Positions 6,866-35,714 of a stretch of DNA of 35,948 nt are shown here, one piece after another. Position 1 is the first letter of the stretch. Each line of letters opens with the position of its first letter. The stretch is from Bacteriovorax stolpii (GTDB lineage Bacteria; Bdellovibrionota; Bacteriovoracia; Bacteriovoracales; Bacteriovoracaceae), in NCBI GenBank assembly GCA_945860895.1, contig CAMASK010000024.1, positions 1 through 35,948 of the forward strand. Reading direction: 5' to 3'. The notes beneath the pieces were generated by a model. The model worked only from the letters and a program-made list of their open reading frames with translations, was not told the origin of the DNA and did not search any database. The position numbers were made by a program, and so were the translations under genes.

Positions 6866-6912
6866 TTTTCGTGAGTTCAGCCCGAAAAGAAGGTGAGTTA
6901 ACTCAACTTCTT
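6866..6912 (+). promoter_or_regulatory. Leader with 26-base near-palindrome ahead of the Q/N-rich gene
   Basis: Positions 6887-6912 form a near-perfect palindrome with 13-base arms (AAGAAGGTGAGTT against AACTCAACTTCTT, one mismatch). It lies immediately before the GAGG ribosome binding site at 6914-6917. A second, shorter inverted repeat (TTTTCG at 6866-6871, CGAAAA at 6883-6888) overlaps its edge. The hexamer TGAGTT occurs twice (6872-6877 and 6894-6899), and either copy could pair with AACTCA at 6900-6905. It could be an operator, an RNA hairpin acting on translation, or a weak terminator for priA; the downstream T run is short (three T). Confidence 0.5.
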
Positions 6913-6923
6913 TGAGGCGATAT

Positions 6924-8999
6924 ATGAAAAAGTTTTCTGCCATTATGCTGTCCCTATTAACTATTCCAGTATACGCGCAAAGTATTCTAGGAAGTTTACA
7001 GCAATATCAAAATGAAATTAAGCCCAAGGCAAATACCGCGGACACGGGAGAAAAATCCAACCAAAAAGTTGAACCGGTTGAAAAAGAAAATCAAAGCGTG
7101 ATGTGCACTGAAAAAGAGCAAACATCACTTCCATTGGCCTACATTACCGGTTTGATGATGGAAAAAGATGGCAAACTGGATATTCAACATGACTCTCGTA
7201 GTGGAAAGCTAACTATTAAGTCTCCTGATATGATTAGTAACTGCTCCTCCATGATTGAGTTTATGGCAGATGTTAAAATAAATGATGATGGGAAAAAGAT
7301 ATATTCAATTGAAGCCAAAATTAAAAAAGGCGAAAACTGTGTTGATGGTAAATGTACTTACTTGGTTGCCAAAGTTGAAAAGGGACAATTTAAAGATTTT
7401 GAAAAACTTCAAATGGCTCCCAATATGGTTGGTTTTGAGCAATGTCTTAAAGATGCTGGGGTAGTTAAAGATGGAAAAGTCGATACAGAGGCTATTTATC
7501 CTTCAACCATAAATGAAAAATTTAGCGGTTATAAAGAATCAGGTGAACTTCTCTTTTTATCACATGGTCCATCTTCAAGTTTAGTTCGACCTAAATATGG
7601 AACTAATTTTGTTGAAATTGATGAGTGTGATTATTTTGAAATAATCTCTGAGGATGGAATTGCTCTCCAATCTACAGAAGAAGAAGAAGCAGCGAGAATT
7701 CTGGCAGAAAAAGAAAAGATCAGAAATTGTGGTGAATATGAAAAAATTGCTGACTTCATTGAGCGCTATCAGGGTTACTCTGAAGATCTTAATGCTGTTA
7801 GAGATGCGCTTATTCTAGACGCAGTAAAAAAAGCAAACGCAAATATCGCAGCAGGTAAATACGGTGAGGAAGATTTAAAAGCTCTAGCCGATTTCGAAAA
7901 ATATGTTGTTCTACCTAAAATTGCCAAAGCTGAAGCTCTTTATCTTGAAGCCGAAGCTTTTCCAGAAGGTAGTTCTGAGCAAAAAACCCGCATTGATCAA
8001 ATGAAAGCCGTTACTTCACAGTTAAGTGGATACTTAAAAGCTCCCTTTCTAACTCCTGGCTTATTAACAAAGCTTGAAACAGATGGACTTTTTGATGATG
8101 CTTTAAAAGTACGCGGTATGGGTGAGTTAATTGTTAAATTTAATAGTGTAGGATTAAGCAACAATCAAATGTCTCCAAGTGCCGCACGATCTGAGGCAGC
8201 GATTATTACAGATAAATATAAAAAAGATCTGGTAGGTAAAAAAGAAAAGTTTGATATCACTCATGGTCAATCAGAAGGTTGCTTCGGAATGTCTTGCTCT
8301 GAGTACTATCGCCGAGAAGCTCAAAAGTATTCACAAAATATGCAGGTACGGACACAGAATTTCACACAAGCTATTTATGAAGAAAACGCTCGTATGCGGC
8401 AACCAACTGGTGCTTGCTATAAGCCATTTAGGAATGTGAATAGATGTATTCAGGAAGCTCAGGCCCGTATTCAGGAACTTCAGGCTCAAATGCAACACTT
8501 TAATGCCCAGGACGCTAAGTTCAGCGCTGAAGCCACAACAAAGTCTAAAGAGTATGCTGAGCTAGAAAAACAAGGTCGTGCTTACGTTGCTCGCCAGAAT
8601 GGAGAAGAACCTCCAGTTGAAGTACCTACGGCTAATAATACAAGTCCCACTCCAAGAACTGATGATAATAGCCAGGGTTATAATTTTGAATATCAAGGTT
8701 ATTCTCAGAATCAAATGCCCCAAAATAACCAGCAATATAATCAACAAATGTATCAACAGCCTCAGCAACAACAGTATTATAATCCATACTCGCAGTTCTC
8801 TCAGCCGCAGTATAACCAACAATACTCTGGTCAATTTAACATTGGAGCAAATTCTGGAATGGGCAACCAACAGCAAGTATATAATCAATATGGTGGTTAC
8901 CAACAGTACCAGCAACCAATGTATCAACAACAGCAAAACAACTATTGGTCAAATCCGTATCAGGCCATGGGCAATTACAATATGTATGGTAACCGTTAA
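6924..8999 (+). CDS. Large exported protein with Q/N/Y-rich prion-like C-terminal tail
   Basis: I do not recognise this protein. I chose the ATG at 6924 over an upstream TTG because GAGG sits 6 bases before it and it gives a good signal peptide (MKKFSAIMLSLLTIPVYAQ). The protein has 691 residues. The first third contains several cysteines (MCTEKEQ, NCSSM, NCVDGKC), suggesting disulfides outside the cytoplasm. The middle is helical and charged, with coiled-coil-like EEEEAARILAEKEK and AQARIQELQAQM segments. From about residue 585 the tail is low-complexity, dominated by Gln, Asn, Tyr, Pro, Ser and Gly. Such tails can mediate adhesion, aggregation or surface assembly; that role is inference. 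No downstream partner gene shares its strand. Confidence 0.75.
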   Translation: MKKFSAIMLSLLTIPVYAQSILGSLQQYQNEIKPKANTADTGEKSNQKVEPVEKENQSVMCTEKEQTSLPLAYITGLMMEKDGKLDIQHDSRSGKLTIKSPDMISNCSSMIEFMADVKINDDGKKIYSIEAKIKKGENCVDGKCTYLVAKVEKGQFKDFEKLQMAPNMVGFEQCLKDAGVVKDGKVDTEAIYPSTINEKFSGYKESGELLFLSHGPSSSLVRPKYGTNFVEIDECDYFEIISEDGIALQSTEEEEAARILAEKEKIRNCGEYEKIADFIERYQGYSEDLNAVRDALILDAVKKANANIAAGKYGEEDLKALADFEKYVVLPKIAKAEALYLEAEAFPEGSSEQKTRIDQMKAVTSQLSGYLKAPFLTPGLLTKLETDGLFDDALKVRGMGELIVKFNSVGLSNNQMSPSAARSEAAIITDKYKKDLVGKKEKFDITHGQSEGCFGMSCSEYYRREAQKYSQNMQVRTQNFTQAIYEENARMRQPTGACYKPFRNVNRCIQEAQARIQELQAQMQHFNAQDAKFSAEATTKSKEYAELEKQGRAYVARQNGEEPPVEVPTANNTSPTPRTDDNSQGYNFEYQGYSQNQMPQNNQQYNQQMYQQPQQQQYYNPYSQFSQPQYNQQYSGQFNIGANSGMGNQQQVYNQYGGYQQYQQPMYQQQQNNYWSNPYQAMGNYNMYGNR

Positions 9000-10742: not shown

Positions 10743-10817
10743 AGGGGTGTCGACAAGTGGTAAGTCAGCAGATTTTGATTCTGCCATCCGTAGGTTCGAA
10801 CCCTGCCACCCCTACCA
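10743..10817 (+). tRNA. tRNA-Gln (anticodon TTG), CCA encoded
   Basis: The 75-base sequence folds as a full cloverleaf. The acceptor arms are AGGGGTG and CACCCCT. The anticodon stem GCAGA/TCTGC encloses the loop TTTTGAT, giving anticodon TTG, which reads CAA and, by wobble, CAG. The T arm GTAGG/CCTGC encloses TTCGAAC. Discriminator A and CCA are encoded at 10814-10817. Seven T follow directly, which may allow partial termination before prs, whose ribosome binding site begins only 13 bases after the tRNA. Confidence 0.95.
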
Positions 10818-18089: not shown

Positions 18090-18281
18090 ATGAAATCTCA
18101 GAAACACAATCAGGGTGAACTCAAAGAGATCAAAGTTAAAATTGAAAAAGATGTAGCAGAAGATTTTGCCAAAATGGCAAAAAACACCAATATCTCTCTT
18201 GATGATTTGATTGTTATTGCAATGAAACGCTTTCGTTCCTCTCATGCAGATTATTTAAAAATTGTTCCATATGTAGAATAA
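18090..18281 (+). CDS. Small ribbon-helix-helix-like protein
   Basis: This 63-residue protein has a candidate RHH fold. A beta-strand-like start (ELKEIKVKIEKDVA) is followed by helix 1 (EDFAKMAKNTN), a short turn (ISLDD) and helix 2 (LIVIAMKRFRSSHADYL). AGGGG lies 5 bases upstream of the ATG, and a strong terminator begins 6 bases after the stop. If it is an RHH protein it would bind DNA as a dimer, and its partner could be the adjacent sigma-54-promoter region; both are inference. The length and composition also fit a small structural or antitoxin-like protein, but no toxin gene is next to it. Confidence 0.65.
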   Translation: MKSQKHNQGELKEIKVKIEKDVAEDFAKMAKNTNISLDDLIVIAMKRFRSSHADYLKIVPYVE

Positions 18282-18286
18282 ACAAG

Positions 18287-18308
18287 AAGCTCTTCGGGAG
18301 CTTTTTTT
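18287..18308 (+). terminator. Rho-independent terminator after the mrp operon
   Basis: The stem AAGCTC (18287-18292) pairs with GAGCTT (18298-18303) around TTCGG, and seven T follow (18302-18308). It ends the mrp, DUF4388-like and small-protein transcript. Confidence 0.85.
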
Positions 18309-18368
18309 GATCAAATTTTAAGTTATTTTCATTCTTAGCTAATCTTAGGCATTAATCAGTCAGAGTTG

Positions 18369-18451
18369 AGACAGCTTGTCTAAAATTCACTCACTCAGCG
18401 ATATAAATCGAAAAAGAATTAAACACCATTACTGTCAAAAATCTAGACAGT
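18369..18451 (+). promoter_or_regulatory. Candidate enhancer (UAS) pair for a sigma-54 activator
   Basis: Two inverted repeats share the TGTC/GACA half-site. The first is AGACAGCTTGTCT (18369-18381). The second is ACTGTC at 18431-18436 with GACAGT at 18446-18451. They lie about 165 and 95-115 bases upstream of the predicted start site, the usual range for enhancer-binding proteins. The half-site orientation and spacing differ between the two, so this is a candidate only. Confidence 0.4.
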
Positions 18452-18518
18452 GCTCAATAATATCTTCATTCTTTCGTTCAAAAACGCCGTAAATTCAAAT
18501 CCTTGATCTAGTCATAAC

Positions 18519-18534
18519 TGGCATCCTGATTGCT
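18519..18534 (+). promoter_or_regulatory. Sigma-54 (RpoN) -24/-12 promoter
   Basis: TGGCATCCTGATTGCT carries the invariant GG and GC exactly 10 bases apart and matches the wider TGGCA...TTGCW consensus. Transcription would start near 18546, about 20 bases before the ATG at 18566, leaving a short leader with AAGAGG. It should need an AAA+ activator such as the NtrC-type protein encoded later in the window. Confidence 0.8.
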
Positions 18535-18565
18535 CTATAAAAGAAAAAGCTTTCAAGAGGTATTT

Positions 18566-19378
18566 ATGAATTGGAACCAAAAATCTAAACAAATCTTAGC
18601 CGCATTATCCTTTGCTTTATTTGTCGTAACTGGGACTTATAATGCAGTGGTAATTAATTCAGAATCTTCTATCTCAGGCTCAGATGTCCGTTTTGCCAAA
18701 AGACTAGATGAAGTTTATGGAGTTGTGAAATCTGGTCGTGAAGTAGCTGCTTCAATTAAATGGCAAAAGCTTTCTGTAAAACAAATCTCTTCACTTAAAC
18801 CACAACTTTTACCTCAGCCATCTATAGTTACTCAGCCAATTAAAACTGATTCCGATTCCGTAGAAGTAGCTCAGGCAGCCGTTCAAGAAGAATTGAATTT
18901 AAATCTTACTGAAGTCATTAATCCTAAGAAATGGCAGCAGGGAATTAACAATTCTCAATTCTCCGGAAATTTAGTGACTAATAACGGTGTTATTGAATCC
19001 TTAAATGTATCACTTCCAAATGATGAAGGTGTTTCTGTGTCTTTCTCTGAAATGACTGGGAACGTTTTTGAATATGATTTTAATGGAGATCTTTATAGTG
19101 GAATGATGTATCAGGTAGATCAAAATGCTTATATGGTGACATTGACTAATGGTCCTCTGGAAGGAACCAGAATGAAATTTTCAGCAGATCTTCCACAACC
19201 TGAAGATGTCGTACCCCAAGAACTTGCTCAAAATGAAGCTCCAGTTGAACAATCTCCTGAAACAATTTTTCAATCAGAAATTCAAAATAATCCAGAACAG
19301 GATTTAAATTCACAAGAAGAAGGTTTAGCAGAGCAACAACAAGCGGGTTATAATTTTGAACTACAACAATCGACGTAG
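18566..19378 (+). CDS. Exported or membrane-anchored glutamine-rich protein under sigma-54 control
   Basis: I do not recognise this protein. The ATG at 18566 (270 residues) is preferred over an upstream TTG because AAGAGG precedes it and the sigma-54 promoter lies just before. Residues 10-28 are hydrophobic (QILAALSFALFVVTGTYNAV) and can serve as a signal anchor or peptide. A middle domain (about 125-215) looks beta-rich (FSGNLVTNNGVIESLNVSLP, VFEYDFNGDLYSGMMYQV). The tail from about 220 is rich in Gln/Glu/Asn and ends GYNFELQQST. It has its own promoter and terminator. Control by sigma-54 suggests a conditional envelope role, for example linked to motility, attachment or predatory phase; that is speculation. 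Confidence 0.75.
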   Translation: MNWNQKSKQILAALSFALFVVTGTYNAVVINSESSISGSDVRFAKRLDEVYGVVKSGREVAASIKWQKLSVKQISSLKPQLLPQPSIVTQPIKTDSDSVEVAQAAVQEELNLNLTEVINPKKWQQGINNSQFSGNLVTNNGVIESLNVSLPNDEGVSVSFSEMTGNVFEYDFNGDLYSGMMYQVDQNAYMVTLTNGPLEGTRMKFSADLPQPEDVVPQELAQNEAPVEQSPETIFQSEIQNNPEQDLNSQEEGLAEQQQAGYNFELQQST

Positions 19379-31513: not shown

Positions 31514-32335
31514 ATGCGCGTGACCACATTTATAATCTTTATAACCTGTTTATTAAGCCTGTTGCTATGGGTGTTTCTAAGTGGGGCTTTATATTTTTTT
31601 GGATTAGTTGTCCTCATATTTTTCCTCATAATAACGATAGGTTACACTGACACAGCAATTCTTTTCTTCATGGGTGCACGTGAAATTAAAAGTCGAGATG
31701 AACATCAGTTTCATGCATCGGCAATGCAAGAAGCCTATAAGTTAGCTGTTCCATTGCCCAATCTCTATTTTTACAATGGTGCCCTTGAGCGAGCTTTTAT
31801 ATTACAGAGCGGTAAAAGTATCAGTCTGATTTTTAGTAAAAATCTCTTAGAGATCTGTACCAAGGATGAACTCTCAGCAATATGCTTTGAACTTTTGCTT
31901 CAGGCTAGAGTGAATATGGCCAGTAAACGAACAAAGGTCATGTTCGTTGTTGGATTGTTTTCATGGCTGTCTCATTCAGTATTAGGCCTTTTAATAAACA
32001 TCATTCCCGTCAAAGAAATCAGGCAGAGTTTGATGTGGTTCATGTATTACTTTCTTCAACCTTGGGTTGAGGTCATATTTAAAGCCACTTTAGGTGAAAA
32101 ATATTTTAGAAAGCTGGAATCTCTGATGAAGAAATACCCTTTTGAAAATGAACTTTTAATGAAATTTGGTTCTAAACTTAGAAAACGAGATGATATATAT
32201 TCACTTGCAAGTCGAAAAATTATTGAGTTCTCATCTTTAAGTAAGAATCGCCATTATCAAAATATCATTACCCTTGAGTTTTTACCCCATGAATGGGATT
32301 TGATTTTTGATTCCAGAATGGAGGCACGTGCTTAA
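31514..32335 (+). CDS. HtpX-like membrane protein lacking the HEXXH active site
   Basis: This 273-residue protein follows the HtpX (M48) plan. It has two N-terminal membrane segments (5-20, 23-44), a cytoplasmic domain, a third segment at about 141-162 and a fourth at about 172-190. MGAREIKSRDEHQFHA and YKLAVPLPNLYFYNG match the HtpX regions before the active site. The HEXXH position after KDELSAI reads FELLL (125-129), so both zinc histidines are absent. It is probably an inactive homologue that could sense or hold membrane proteins. It overlaps the downstream sensor kinase by 8 bases (GTG start), implying a functional link. Confidence 0.7.
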   Translation: MRVTTFIIFITCLLSLLLWVFLSGALYFFGLVVLIFFLIITIGYTDTAILFFMGAREIKSRDEHQFHASAMQEAYKLAVPLPNLYFYNGALERAFILQSGKSISLIFSKNLLEICTKDELSAICFELLLQARVNMASKRTKVMFVVGLFSWLSHSVLGLLINIIPVKEIRQSLMWFMYYFLQPWVEVIFKATLGEKYFRKLESLMKKYPFENELLMKFGSKLRKRDDIYSLASRKIIEFSSLSKNRHYQNIITLEFLPHEWDLIFDSRMEARA

Positions 32336-34199
32336 TAAATTCAAATCAATTGAATTTTCAAAGTTTGCACCACTATTGGTGACGTTAGCCTTTATTTTAA
32401 TTTTGATTCAATATTCTTTTTATCCTCTGGAATCGATATTTTTTGATTTCTGGGTGAAGAATGATATCTCATCTAAAAGCTTCAAAAACCCAATCGTCCT
32501 GATTACTATGGATGAAGAAAGTGATCAGTTTCTAGGGGAAACTTACCCCTACACTTACGCTTCCCATAATCGATTAATGAATCGTTTGGTGGTGGATAAT
32601 CCTGCTATTATAAATTATTTTGTATCCCTACTCGAACCTGATTCTGAGGTTGAAGCAAGATATCAGACTGAATTCTATGAATCGATTAAAAATTTTTCTC
32701 CGGCTTCTGATCGTTTTAAATTTGGAACAGAGATTGATAACTTTGGTGAGCAAATTCCTCCCGAGGGCTTAAGAGAAATAGACTATCATTTGGGCCAACT
32801 CTACAAAGATCAGCAAATTTTTTCGAAAGATGAGGTAGTAAGAAGAGCGATTCTTAATATTTCTGGTGAAGATTCATTGCATTTGTGGACTGCTAAAAAA
32901 TTTAGAGAATTAAAAAAACAAGCCGTCCTTGATGCCACTGCCTATAAAGGCGCTTATTATAATTCAGAAGCAGATGCCAATTTTGCGCTTTTTAAATTTT
33001 CTGGGAACCCATTAACAACCGAAACCATTGTAATTCCTTTTCATCGAGTCGTTGTAGGAAATTTTCCAACAGGTTTTTTTAAGGATAAAATTGTACTTAT
33101 TGGTCCCCAGTATTTATCCAACACGAATGATTTTATTTTAACTCCCTTTGAAAAAGAGAATGCGCGAACTCCTAAATTGATGGTTCATGCACATGTCATA
33201 GAAGCTTTAATCGCGGAAAAAACAATTTTTGATATTAAAGATTCCTATACCAAAATTGCTTCGATCTTAATCGCGATTATATTGTCCTATGTTATTTCTC
33301 GAGTTCAGCCCGTTAAGGGGCTAATGATTACAATTTTTTTAATTATTGGAATTTTATTAATAAGCTATCTTGCTTTTATTTCCTTTGGTTGGTGGATTAA
33401 GTTATCTCACCTAGTACTAAGTATTTTCGTAGTTTACTACATATGGGTACCATTCAGAGCGATTGAAGAGTATCAAACAAGGTATGCGATTCAGGAAGAA
33501 ACAAAGTTATTGAAGCAAGTTGATAATTTAAAACAAAACTTTATATCTTTAATGAGTCATGATTTAAAAACACCCGTGGCTAAAATCGCTGGTATTGCTG
33601 ATATTTTAAAAATTAAATTTAATAACAGTACTGAACAAAATGAGCTTATTGATAATGTCGTTCACTCGACCAAAGAATTAAATGATTTCATTAATAGTAT
33701 TTTAGATTTAACTAAAATCGAATCCCAGAATTTGACCTTGCGGAAAGAATCTAAGGATATGAATAAGATTATTGAGGGGATTGTCGAAAAACTGGAATTT
33801 GAAGCTAGCAATAAACAAATGAGGATTGAATCAGATCTTTCACCGCTCTATCCCATTCAGATAGATACTGTACTAATGAACAGGGTTATTTCAAACCTTA
33901 TTGAGAATGCTATCAAGTACGCTGGGAGAGAGAAAACCATCTGGATTAAAACTTGGGATGACATTGATTGGGTTTATATTGAAATTCGCGATAATGGTTT
34001 GGGTATAGGACCAGATGATCTAACCCATATTTTTGATAAATTTTATCGGGTGAAGAATGATTCTACCCATGCAATTAAAGGCTCTGGTTTAGGCCTTTAT
34101 CTGGTAAAATATTTTATCGAGCTTCACAATGGGGTCATTAATGCAGCCTCTAAGTTAGGTGAGGGAACGTCGTTTATAATAAAGCTAAAGAATGAATAG
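32328..34199 (+). CDS. CHASE2-domain sensor histidine kinase
   Basis: This is an inner-membrane sensor. I chose the GTG at 32328 (GGAGG upstream, only 3 bases away; overlapping the HtpX-like gene) over a TTG at 32307. The 623 residues have one N-terminal membrane helix (about 15-33) and a large extracytoplasmic CHASE2 domain (about 35-295) ending in FKDKIVLIGPQ and KLMVHAHVIEALI. Three membrane helices (310-375) follow, then a HisKA with phosphorylatable His at about 411 (SLMSHDLKTPVAKI). The HATPase has N-box NLIENAIKYA, DNGLGIG and GSGLGLYL. Its partner is the sigma-54 regulator just downstream. Confidence 0.92.
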   Translation: MLNKFKSIEFSKFAPLLVTLAFILILIQYSFYPLESIFFDFWVKNDISSKSFKNPIVLITMDEESDQFLGETYPYTYASHNRLMNRLVVDNPAIINYFVSLLEPDSEVEARYQTEFYESIKNFSPASDRFKFGTEIDNFGEQIPPEGLREIDYHLGQLYKDQQIFSKDEVVRRAILNISGEDSLHLWTAKKFRELKKQAVLDATAYKGAYYNSEADANFALFKFSGNPLTTETIVIPFHRVVVGNFPTGFFKDKIVLIGPQYLSNTNDFILTPFEKENARTPKLMVHAHVIEALIAEKTIFDIKDSYTKIASILIAIILSYVISRVQPVKGLMITIFLIIGILLISYLAFISFGWWIKLSHLVLSIFVVYYIWVPFRAIEEYQTRYAIQEETKLLKQVDNLKQNFISLMSHDLKTPVAKIAGIADILKIKFNNSTEQNELIDNVVHSTKELNDFINSILDLTKIESQNLTLRKESKDMNKIIEGIVEKLEFEASNKQMRIESDLSPLYPIQIDTVLMNRVISNLIENAIKYAGREKTIWIKTWDDIDWVYIEIRDNGLGIGPDDLTHIFDKFYRVKNDSTHAIKGSGLGLYLVKYFIELHNGVINAASKLGEGTSFIIKLKNE

Positions 34200-34208
34200 G
34201 AGCCGTCG

Positions 34209-35714
34209 ATGCATAAGGTTTTAGTTGTAGATGATGATAAAGTTCTTCAGCAATCAGTGAAGCAAGCTCTAGAATACCATCACTTTGCAGTAGAAGTCGC
34301 TGACAATGGAAAGGAAGCTGTTAAAAAGGTTTATGGCCAGAAATATGATCTGGTTGTTATGGATGTTAACATGCCAGAGATGGATGGAATTCAAGCCTTA
34401 ACTGAAATTAAAAAACATGATCCTTCTGTCATTGTCTTAATTCTTACCGCTTATTCAAATGTTACCGATGCCGTAAAAGCAGTGAAGGAAGGAGCTTATA
34501 ACTATCTGGAAAAGCCGATAACTTCAGAAAACTTAGTGGCACTCATTAAGCGCGCTCTTAAGGCACGTTCAATGGTAGAGACTCTCACATTTTCATCCCC
34601 GACACTTTCTATTGGCGAAACATCTACTTCCAAAGATAAGTTTGTTGGCGAATCAAATGCCATGAAAAAAGTGTTTGATGTTATTTCTAAACTTGCGAAG
34701 GTAAATACTCCTGTTTTAATTCGTGGAGAGTCTGGTACTGGGAAGGAATTGGTAGCGAAAGCCATTCACTACAATTCGCCCAGAAAAGACGAAAAATTTG
34801 TTACAATTAATTGTGGCGCAATTTCAGAAAATTTAATTGAGTCAGAATTATTTGGGCATGAAAAAGGTGCTTTTACTGGCGCTGATCAAAGGAAAATAGG
34901 AAAATTTCAATTTGCAGAAGGTGGAACTATCTTTCTGGATGAAATTGGTGATATTTCAGCTGGAATGCAGGTTAAGTTACTACGTGTATTGCAGGAAAAA
35001 ACTTTTATGCCGGTTGGTTCAAACCGTGAAATTAAAGTTGATGTTCGAATTATTGCTGCTTCTCACAAGCCATTTGAAGAAATGATTAAGGATGGTTCCT
35101 TCCGAGAGGACTTATTTTATCGATTAAATGTTCTTCCCGTTTATCTTCCTCCATTAAGAGAAAGAAAAACGGATATTCCTCATTTAGTTAATCACTATAT
35201 CAATTACTTTAATAATGTTCACAATCTTAGAGTTGGTGGAGCAGAACCTGAAGCTTTGGAAGTTTTAACTAATTATTCCTGGCCGGGAAATATTAGAGAA
35301 CTGAGAAACATCATTGAGCATTGTTTCATTATGGAAGCTTCTGACATGATTCACGTGAATTCATTACCAGCCATCGTTTTTAAAGACCAGAAGAAGTCGG
35401 AAGCTAAAGATCTTGGTGCAACAGACAGCGTAATTGATCTTACAGATATTCAAAACTCAGTACTTGATGCCCCTTCGGCTAAATCGCCAGTTGCGGGTAA
35501 CGAAGTGCATTTCTCTTTTGGGACTAAAGTTGGAGATGGCGGAAAACTTGATTTTGCCATTGCCAAAGACCTCTTTGAGAAGGAATTTATAGTTCAAGCC
35601 TTAAAAATTAATAAAGGCAGAATTAACCAGACGGCGCTCAACGCAAATATACCGAAAAAAACTCTTTTGAGAAAAATCGAGAAATATGAAATTGTGCCGA
35701 AAGATTACTACTAG
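34209..35714 (+). CDS. NtrC-type sigma-54-dependent response regulator
   Basis: This regulator activates sigma-54 promoters when phosphorylated by the kinase. The 501-residue protein has a receiver domain (1-120) with phospho-Asp52 ([12 protein letters not shown]). The AAA+ domain (about 143-370) has Walker [19 protein letters not shown] (the sigma-54 contact loop) and Walker [10 protein letters not shown] variable linker follows, then a C-terminal Fis-type helix-turn-helix ([24 protein letters not shown]). It has AGGAG before the ATG and lies 9 bases after the kinase stop. It is followed 8 bases later by lspA, so lspA may share the operon. Confidence 0.96.

Follow-up and report, generated by a model that had tools for sequence, protein, structure and literature searches.

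Genetic context of the promoter

The window, by which we mean the whole stretch of DNA analysed here (35,948 nucleotides), is contig C24 of a 2.79-Mb Bacteriovorax stolpii genome assembled in 129 contigs. The species belongs to the Bdellovibrionota, a phylum noted for predatory bacteria. Our analysis centres on a gene for a 270-aa protein, hereafter the target, and on the DNA immediately upstream of it, which contains the following features:

18090 to 18283, + strand: 63-aa open reading frame (MKSQKHNQGELKEIKVKIEKDVAEDFAK...) upstream of the promoter, as read from the DNA
18377 to 18393, + strand: predicted weaker enhancer site, UAS B (TGTCTAAAATTCACTCA), agreeing with the 17-bp palindrome TGTCTAAANTTTAGACA at 13 of 16 positions
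18433 to 18449, + strand: predicted main enhancer site, UAS A (TGTCAAAAATCTAGACA), agreeing with TGTCTAAANTTTAGACA at 14 of 16 positions
18493 to 18505, + strand: tentative IHF-like site (ATTCAAATCCTTG), lying between enhancer and promoter and agreeing with the consensus at 8 of 9 positions
18519 to 18534, + strand: sigma-54 -24/-12 element (TGGCATCCTGATTGCT), exact consensus match, with GG at 18520-18521 and GC at 18532-18533
18545, + strand: start of transcription as predicted from standard sigma-54 geometry, 12 nt past the C of the -12 element
18555 to 18560, + strand: Shine-Dalgarno-like AAGAGG, predicted, before the ATG at 18566
18566 to 19378, + strand: target gene, 270 aa, with relatives in 58 of 145 genomes

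The 63-aa open reading frame ends at a hairpin with a run of T residues (18284-18310), which separates it from the promoter; DNA resembling this open reading frame region is also seen upstream of several target orthologs. Elsewhere in the window, a tRNA gene (10743-10814) is the sole Rfam match, and positions 6912-8999 encode a 695-aa protein that looks exported, has a C-terminal tail rich in Q, N and Y, and matches no Pfam family.

The comparison set for the target, for the composite sites described below and for activator domains consisted of 145 related genomes. Within the genus there are usually two target paralogs per genome, and most of the homologs found in named records belong to metagenome assemblies of Bacteriovoracaceae (Bacteriovorax, Halobacteriovorax). 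The target matched no Pfam or PHROG family and had no significant PDB sequence match. Its structural model (mean pLDDT 69) consists of a hydrophobic helix (residues 6-31), a linker, a confidently modelled beta-domain (approximately residues 110-207) and a disordered Q/E-rich C-terminal tail, and the best Foldseek matches, to lipocalins and fatty-acid-binding proteins, were suggestive but not significant (E 0.016, TM-scores below 0.45). The target had been described in a first-pass annotation of this DNA as an exported, glutamine-rich protein; “glutamine-rich” is true of the disordered tail alone. Because the N-terminal hydrophobic helix has no clear cleavage site, the protein is as likely to be membrane-anchored as secreted. 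We read the target as an exported or membrane-anchored beta-domain protein, and our guess is that it acts as a periplasmic, membrane-anchored binding or scaffold protein.

The -24/-12 element is conserved upstream of target homologs

The TGGCA-N6-TTGCT element reported by the first-pass annotation is present exactly as described, at 18519-18534. Exact TGGCAN6TTGCW sites are enriched in the genome, since the pattern occurs 22 times and the same pattern read backwards occurs 3 times. (Seventeen of the 22 lie on the + strand of their contigs, which exceeds random contig orientation and may be chance.) To assess conservation, we extracted the upstream DNA of 64 target homologs, both orthologs and paralogs, with usable starts. 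Fifty-nine of them carry the pattern TGG[CT][AC]N6[TA]TGC[ATC] approximately 38-61 bp upstream of the start codon, a range that is shifted slightly by three starts that were set by default, and homologs with as little as ~25-30% protein identity still carry the element. Among the five exceptions, L076 does carry the site, and a composite match with it, but its start was wrongly placed, L085 and L097 have near-miss elements, and L094 and L099 are divergent short paralogs. The target paralog in the same genome (C111) has a sigma-54 site of its own, TGGCATTCGGCTTGCT.

Because the -12 GC is at 18532-18533, transcription is expected to start near 18545, leaving ~21 nt to the ATG at 18566, in agreement with the 20-base leader proposed previously. 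The genome contains a single copy of rpoN (E=6e-62). The locus has a consensus -24/-12 element and a helically phased palindrome upstream, in a genome with rpoN and competent activators; judged from sequence, the 18369-18566 promoter holds up and amounts to more than an isolated match to the consensus.

A 17-bp palindrome forms the putative enhancer

The first-pass annotation had also placed two inverted repeats built from TGTC and GACA upstream of the promoter. Most target orthologs have the palindrome TGTCTAAANTTTAGACA upstream, and the commonest distance to the -24 element is 57-71 bp. Among homologs, the best palindrome score within 200 bp upstream averaged 13.5 of 16, versus 9.7 in dinucleotide shuffles, and only ~0.2% of shuffled regions reached a best score of at least 13. 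There are indeed two sites in the window, but the repeat unit and the boundaries of the first site had to be redrawn. The second repeat as originally drawn, CTGTCAAAAATCTAGACAG (18432-18450), is real and conserved, and its 17-bp core, at 14 of 16, is UAS A. The first, GACAGCTTGTC (18370-18380), exists as a string, but its order, GACA-N3-TGTC, is the reverse of the conserved form. We dropped GACAGCTTGTC as an operator: it is not conserved and is a chance string at the edge of UAS B, the left half-site of which is the right half, TGTC, of GACAGCTTGTC.

UAS A ends 69 bp before TGGC, and the same spacing class (68-71 bp) occurs at unrelated promoters of the regulon in this genome. It is not the best copy in the genome, scoring 14 of 16 versus 15 to 16 of 16 at other promoters. 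UAS B lies 56 bp upstream of UAS A; a second palindrome matching at 12 or more of 16 positions is present in 8 of 58 orthologous promoters, versus 0.8 expected.

Positional profiles over unrelated promoters give TGTC(T)A as the half-site and reveal a weak position-specific signal 18 bp downstream of the palindrome (mean score 5.5-6.2 versus ~4.4), which suggests weak tandem dimer sites at that position, not clear in the window itself. An IHF-like site between enhancer and promoter is proposed tentatively: IHF-type matches are modestly enriched in regulon promoters (23 versus ~9 expected) and number 15 in ortholog promoters versus ~6.5 expected, and many lie ~26-30 bp before TGGC. A weak element ~14-17 bp before TGGC is likewise tentative.

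Palindrome and promoter recur at helically phased distances

The annotation had further suggested a genome scan for sigma-54 sites accompanied by the same half-sites. We defined a composite pattern, TGTC-N9-GACA-N45..75-TGGC-N7-TTGC, and found that it recurs both in this genome and in relatives: it is present in 79 of the 145 related genomes, with ~1 match in the reversed-pattern control, an enrichment of ~145 to 1. In 79 promoters, the distance from palindrome to TGGC falls into three clusters (46-52, 55-62 and 66-75 bp) with peaks at 49, 58 and 69 bp, and the best-fitting period is 10.5 bp (Rayleigh p ~5e-12). Helical phasing, here across one and two turns, is a requirement of an enhancer-binding protein that acts by DNA looping, and a 10.5-bp spacing period is what would be expected of such an activator.

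The composite site mostly marks genes for exported proteins

In this genome, the composite pattern precedes the target gene and three others, which encode a subtilase (C1), a secreted peptide of 61 aa (C13) and an exported protein of 653 aa (C26); a palindrome variant (13 of 16) also lies 46 bp from the sigma-54 site of a gene for a 176-aa exported protein (C16). Most of the other exact sigma-54 sites in the genome have no palindrome, as expected if its reader is one activator among several. Several of these palindrome-less sites (L005, L006, L011, L017, L018) precede lipoprotein genes, and the one at L011 precedes a gene resembling that of a flagellar rod protein; activators other than the palindrome's reader therefore also serve envelope genes.

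Across the comparison set, we compiled 80 regulon loci from ~50 genomes and read 79 of the downstream proteins. These represent ~40 unrelated families, so homology of the genes does not explain conservation of the site. A crude test classes 63 of the 79 as exported, versus 58 of 140 neighbouring open reading frames (p=3e-8), and a few of the remainder are also exported, judged by eye. Pfam domains among them include subtilase, metallophosphoesterase, phospholipase-D-like and alkaline-phosphatase-superfamily domains. The promoter, the enhancer, their helical phasing, the regulon and its exported targets all come directly from these computations. Taken together, the sites point to what appears to be a regulon conserved across Bacteriovorax-like bacteria (Bacteriovoracaceae), in which many exported-protein genes would be activated through a shared site.

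Several features of individual loci deserve mention. A family of ~60-aa secreted peptides ranks among the two most frequent at the loci read (e.g. MRHLLIITILASLFSGMAFAAESKTDCPMMREMNRR...), encoded at L156, L159, L165, L173, L183, L184, L189 and L198, each with a composite promoter. The chief non-exported member is a ~970-aa cytosolic protein (L162, L167, L169, L178, L196, L217) whose N terminus holds a class III aminotransferase domain (PF00202) and whose long remainder has no Pfam match. Genome G098, in which the DNA-binding domain of activator L053 (described below) is absent, carries composite sites in which the core is instead TGTCCGAATTTCGGACA; these may represent a related operator that a different activator recognises.

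Which activator reads the palindrome

The window itself encodes, 15 kb from the promoter, a candidate activator and its probable partner:

32307 to 34199, + strand: probable partner sensor kinase, with a CHASE2 extracytoplasmic domain, HisKA and HATPase (Pfam)
34209 to 35714, + strand: candidate activator L053, 501 aa, with a receiver domain, a sigma-54 AAA+ domain (GAFTGA) and a Fis-type DNA-binding domain

The genome encodes ten clear PF00158 proteins, six of which have a GAFTGA or GSFTGA loop. In L053, PF00072 and PF00158 score well above cut-off and HTH_8 falls just below it (E=3e-4, 20.9 bits, cut-off 22), so that the 34209-35714 protein has the receiver, GAFTGA-containing AAA+ domain and Fis-type helix-turn-helix of an NtrC-class enhancer-binding response regulator. 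The CHASE2 kinase gene ends ~10 bp before the activator gene. L053 is 75-95% identical across the 30 best orthologous loci, and in 29 of these the same kinase directly precedes the activator; a contig end interrupts the remaining one. A plausible consequence of this pairing is that the kinase gives the pathway an extracytoplasmic input.

Proximity offered no clue to the activator at other loci. A clear NtrC-type activator gene was found near none of the 80 regulon loci, two of which have weak receiver-like matches nearby, and autoregulation or adjacency was dropped as a guide. Instead, we compared the six activators through their C-terminal DNA-binding domains, searching each domain against the 145 genomes. 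The domains of L055, L057 and L058 are kept in the genus alone or only weakly beyond it, too narrowly for a family-wide operator, and these three were rejected. The domains of L053, L054 and L056 are widespread; that of L053 shows 86-95% identity among members of the genus and, for the most part, ~69-89% elsewhere in the family. Presence of the composite site is associated with presence of the L053 domain (75/46/4/20 genomes with both, domain only, site only and neither; Fisher p=7e-5, phylogeny ignored), and outside the family the association gives p=0.04, again with phylogeny ignored. Many genomes thus have the L053 activator without a strict composite site. The four with sites and no L053 domain are G007, a genus member (76% complete) with good consensus sites in which no activator domain was detected, and three genomes whose palindromes score 8-12 of 16.

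The same promoter and enhancer could instead be served by a GSFTGA protein encoded on C3 (L054) or on C10 (L056), the DNA-binding domains of which are conserved across the phylum and could therefore support a family-wide regulon. We consider this assignment unlikely, if the strongest of the alternatives. Across the 145 genomes, neither domain was associated with presence of the site (p=0.73 for L054 and p=0.19 for L056, phylogeny ignored), six genomes with sites yielded no match to L056, and both proteins are present in genomes without any consensus site. One such genome is G050, a family member (99% complete) that has no strong L053-domain match, no sites and no target, and that keeps L054 and L056. 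Among the six functional enhancer-binding proteins, only L053 combines a sufficiently wide distribution with a presence that follows that of the sites, and this correlation makes it the most likely regulator, in support of the first-pass annotation, which had named the NtrC-type protein at 34209-35714 as a candidate; the argument from co-occurrence is correlative, and it is in this sense that we infer the identity of the palindrome's binder.

We weighed two further explanations. Many dimeric repressors, too, typically have sites that are 17-bp palindromes with a central N, and the site could belong to a repressor or other non-sigma-54 regulator and lie upstream of sigma-54 promoters by chance. 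This is highly improbable, given that palindrome and -24/-12 element are helically phased at 46-75 bp, distances typical of enhancers, at dozens of unrelated promoters; a repressor needs no helical phasing with the -24 element. Finally, although -24/-12-like sites with one mismatch are no commoner in the window than in shuffles and palindromes with mismatches are common, a chance TGGCAN6TTGCT combined with chance TGTC and GACA strings in AT-rich DNA is ruled out by conservation in orthologs and paralogs together with the composite control.

A model for regulation by L053 and the CHASE2 kinase

We regard as probable a model in which the target is transcribed from an enhancer-dependent sigma-54 promoter, controlled by the window's 34209-35714 protein and CHASE2 kinase as part of a family-wide exported-protein regulon. 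Sigma-54 RNA polymerase would wait in a closed complex on TGGCATCCTGATTGCT, while a dimer of the NtrC-class response regulator L053 would bind UAS A and a second dimer the weaker copy 56 bp further upstream. The adjacent CHASE2 histidine kinase, sensing something outside the cytoplasm, would control the regulator, which once phosphorylated would form a hexamer, loop the DNA and open the promoter by ATP hydrolysis. Like the identity of the binder, the nature of the signal and the role of the target protein are our inference.

In its broadest form, the proposal is that the CHASE2-kinase/response-regulator pair commands a lineage-wide, almost wholly exported regulon through sigma-54 and TGTCTAAANTTTAGACA, as a previously undescribed master switch of the secretome; we place the chances of this about evenly. 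If it is true, subtilases, phosphoesterases, phospholipase-D-like proteins, lipoproteins and tiny secreted peptides would form one regulon, which new secreted genes would keep joining by gaining a TGTCTAAANTTTAGACA-type site. Regulation in predatory Bdellovibrionota is poorly known. With a defined operator, a spacing rule and one leading candidate for the regulator, the idea of a sigma-54 secretome regulon is open to direct experiment. The composite site also lists candidate secreted proteins independently of function, many of them without a known domain. The first-pass annotation proved right in its main points; beyond it, the analysis contributes the correct operator, the spacing rule, the exported-protein regulon and the elimination of rivals.

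Comparison with known systems

Pilin regulation of the PilR type also pairs an NtrC-class activator with sigma-54, and Pseudomonas pilA is reported to have TGTC repeats upstream. Among the regulon targets read, we recognised neither pilin nor pil genes, and the system in the window differs in the CHASE2 domain of the activator's partner kinase.

Sigma-54 regulons are known as such; this one appears to be undescribed. In the parts concerned, the survey by Francke et al. (2011, PMC3162934) assigns envelope and surface functions to sigma-54 promoters, and it shares with our results the general theme of sigma-54 and the bacterial exterior; those passages do not describe this enhancer or regulon, and the main text does not mention Bdellovibrio. 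In the attack phase of Bdellovibrio bacteriovorus, a predatory relative, surface proteins and proteases are likewise under a global switch, but there two thirds of the promoters have a FliA (sigma-28) motif and the remaining third yielded no strong motif (Karunker et al. 2013, PMC3627812), whereas the switch described here would use sigma-54. RpoN (bd0843) is known in B. bacteriovorus (PMC3464611). In the open-licence literature, we found no paper on its RpoN regulon in that species, and work on sigma-54 regulation in Bdellovibrionota does not describe the present regulon.

A further close likeness is to GlrR (QseF)/GlrK of enterobacteria, which acts with sigma-54 on glmY, glmZ and rpoE: both systems have a response-regulator activator, sigma-54 promoters, a palindromic TGTC...GACA enhancer and a link to the cell envelope. 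GlrK is not known to have a CHASE2 domain, which the partner kinase here does have. Of the six activators, L053 has the DNA-binding domain that most resembles that of GlrR, which together with GlrR's TGTC...GACA operator speaks further for L053 as the palindrome's reader, yet this domain scores higher with AtoC than with GlrR, and L053 was rejected as a GlrR orthologue, with 368.6 bits against the NCBIfam GlrR model (cut-off 763) and an operator spacer of 9 rather than 10. GlrR binds TGTC-N10-GACA (PMC4987338, PMC8745638), whereas the conserved palindrome in the window has a 9-bp spacer, with core TAAANTTTA. The E. coli GlrR operon holds qseG and glmY, both absent here. The targets differ as well: small RNAs and rpoE in the case of GlrR, and dozens of exported proteins in the regulon described here.
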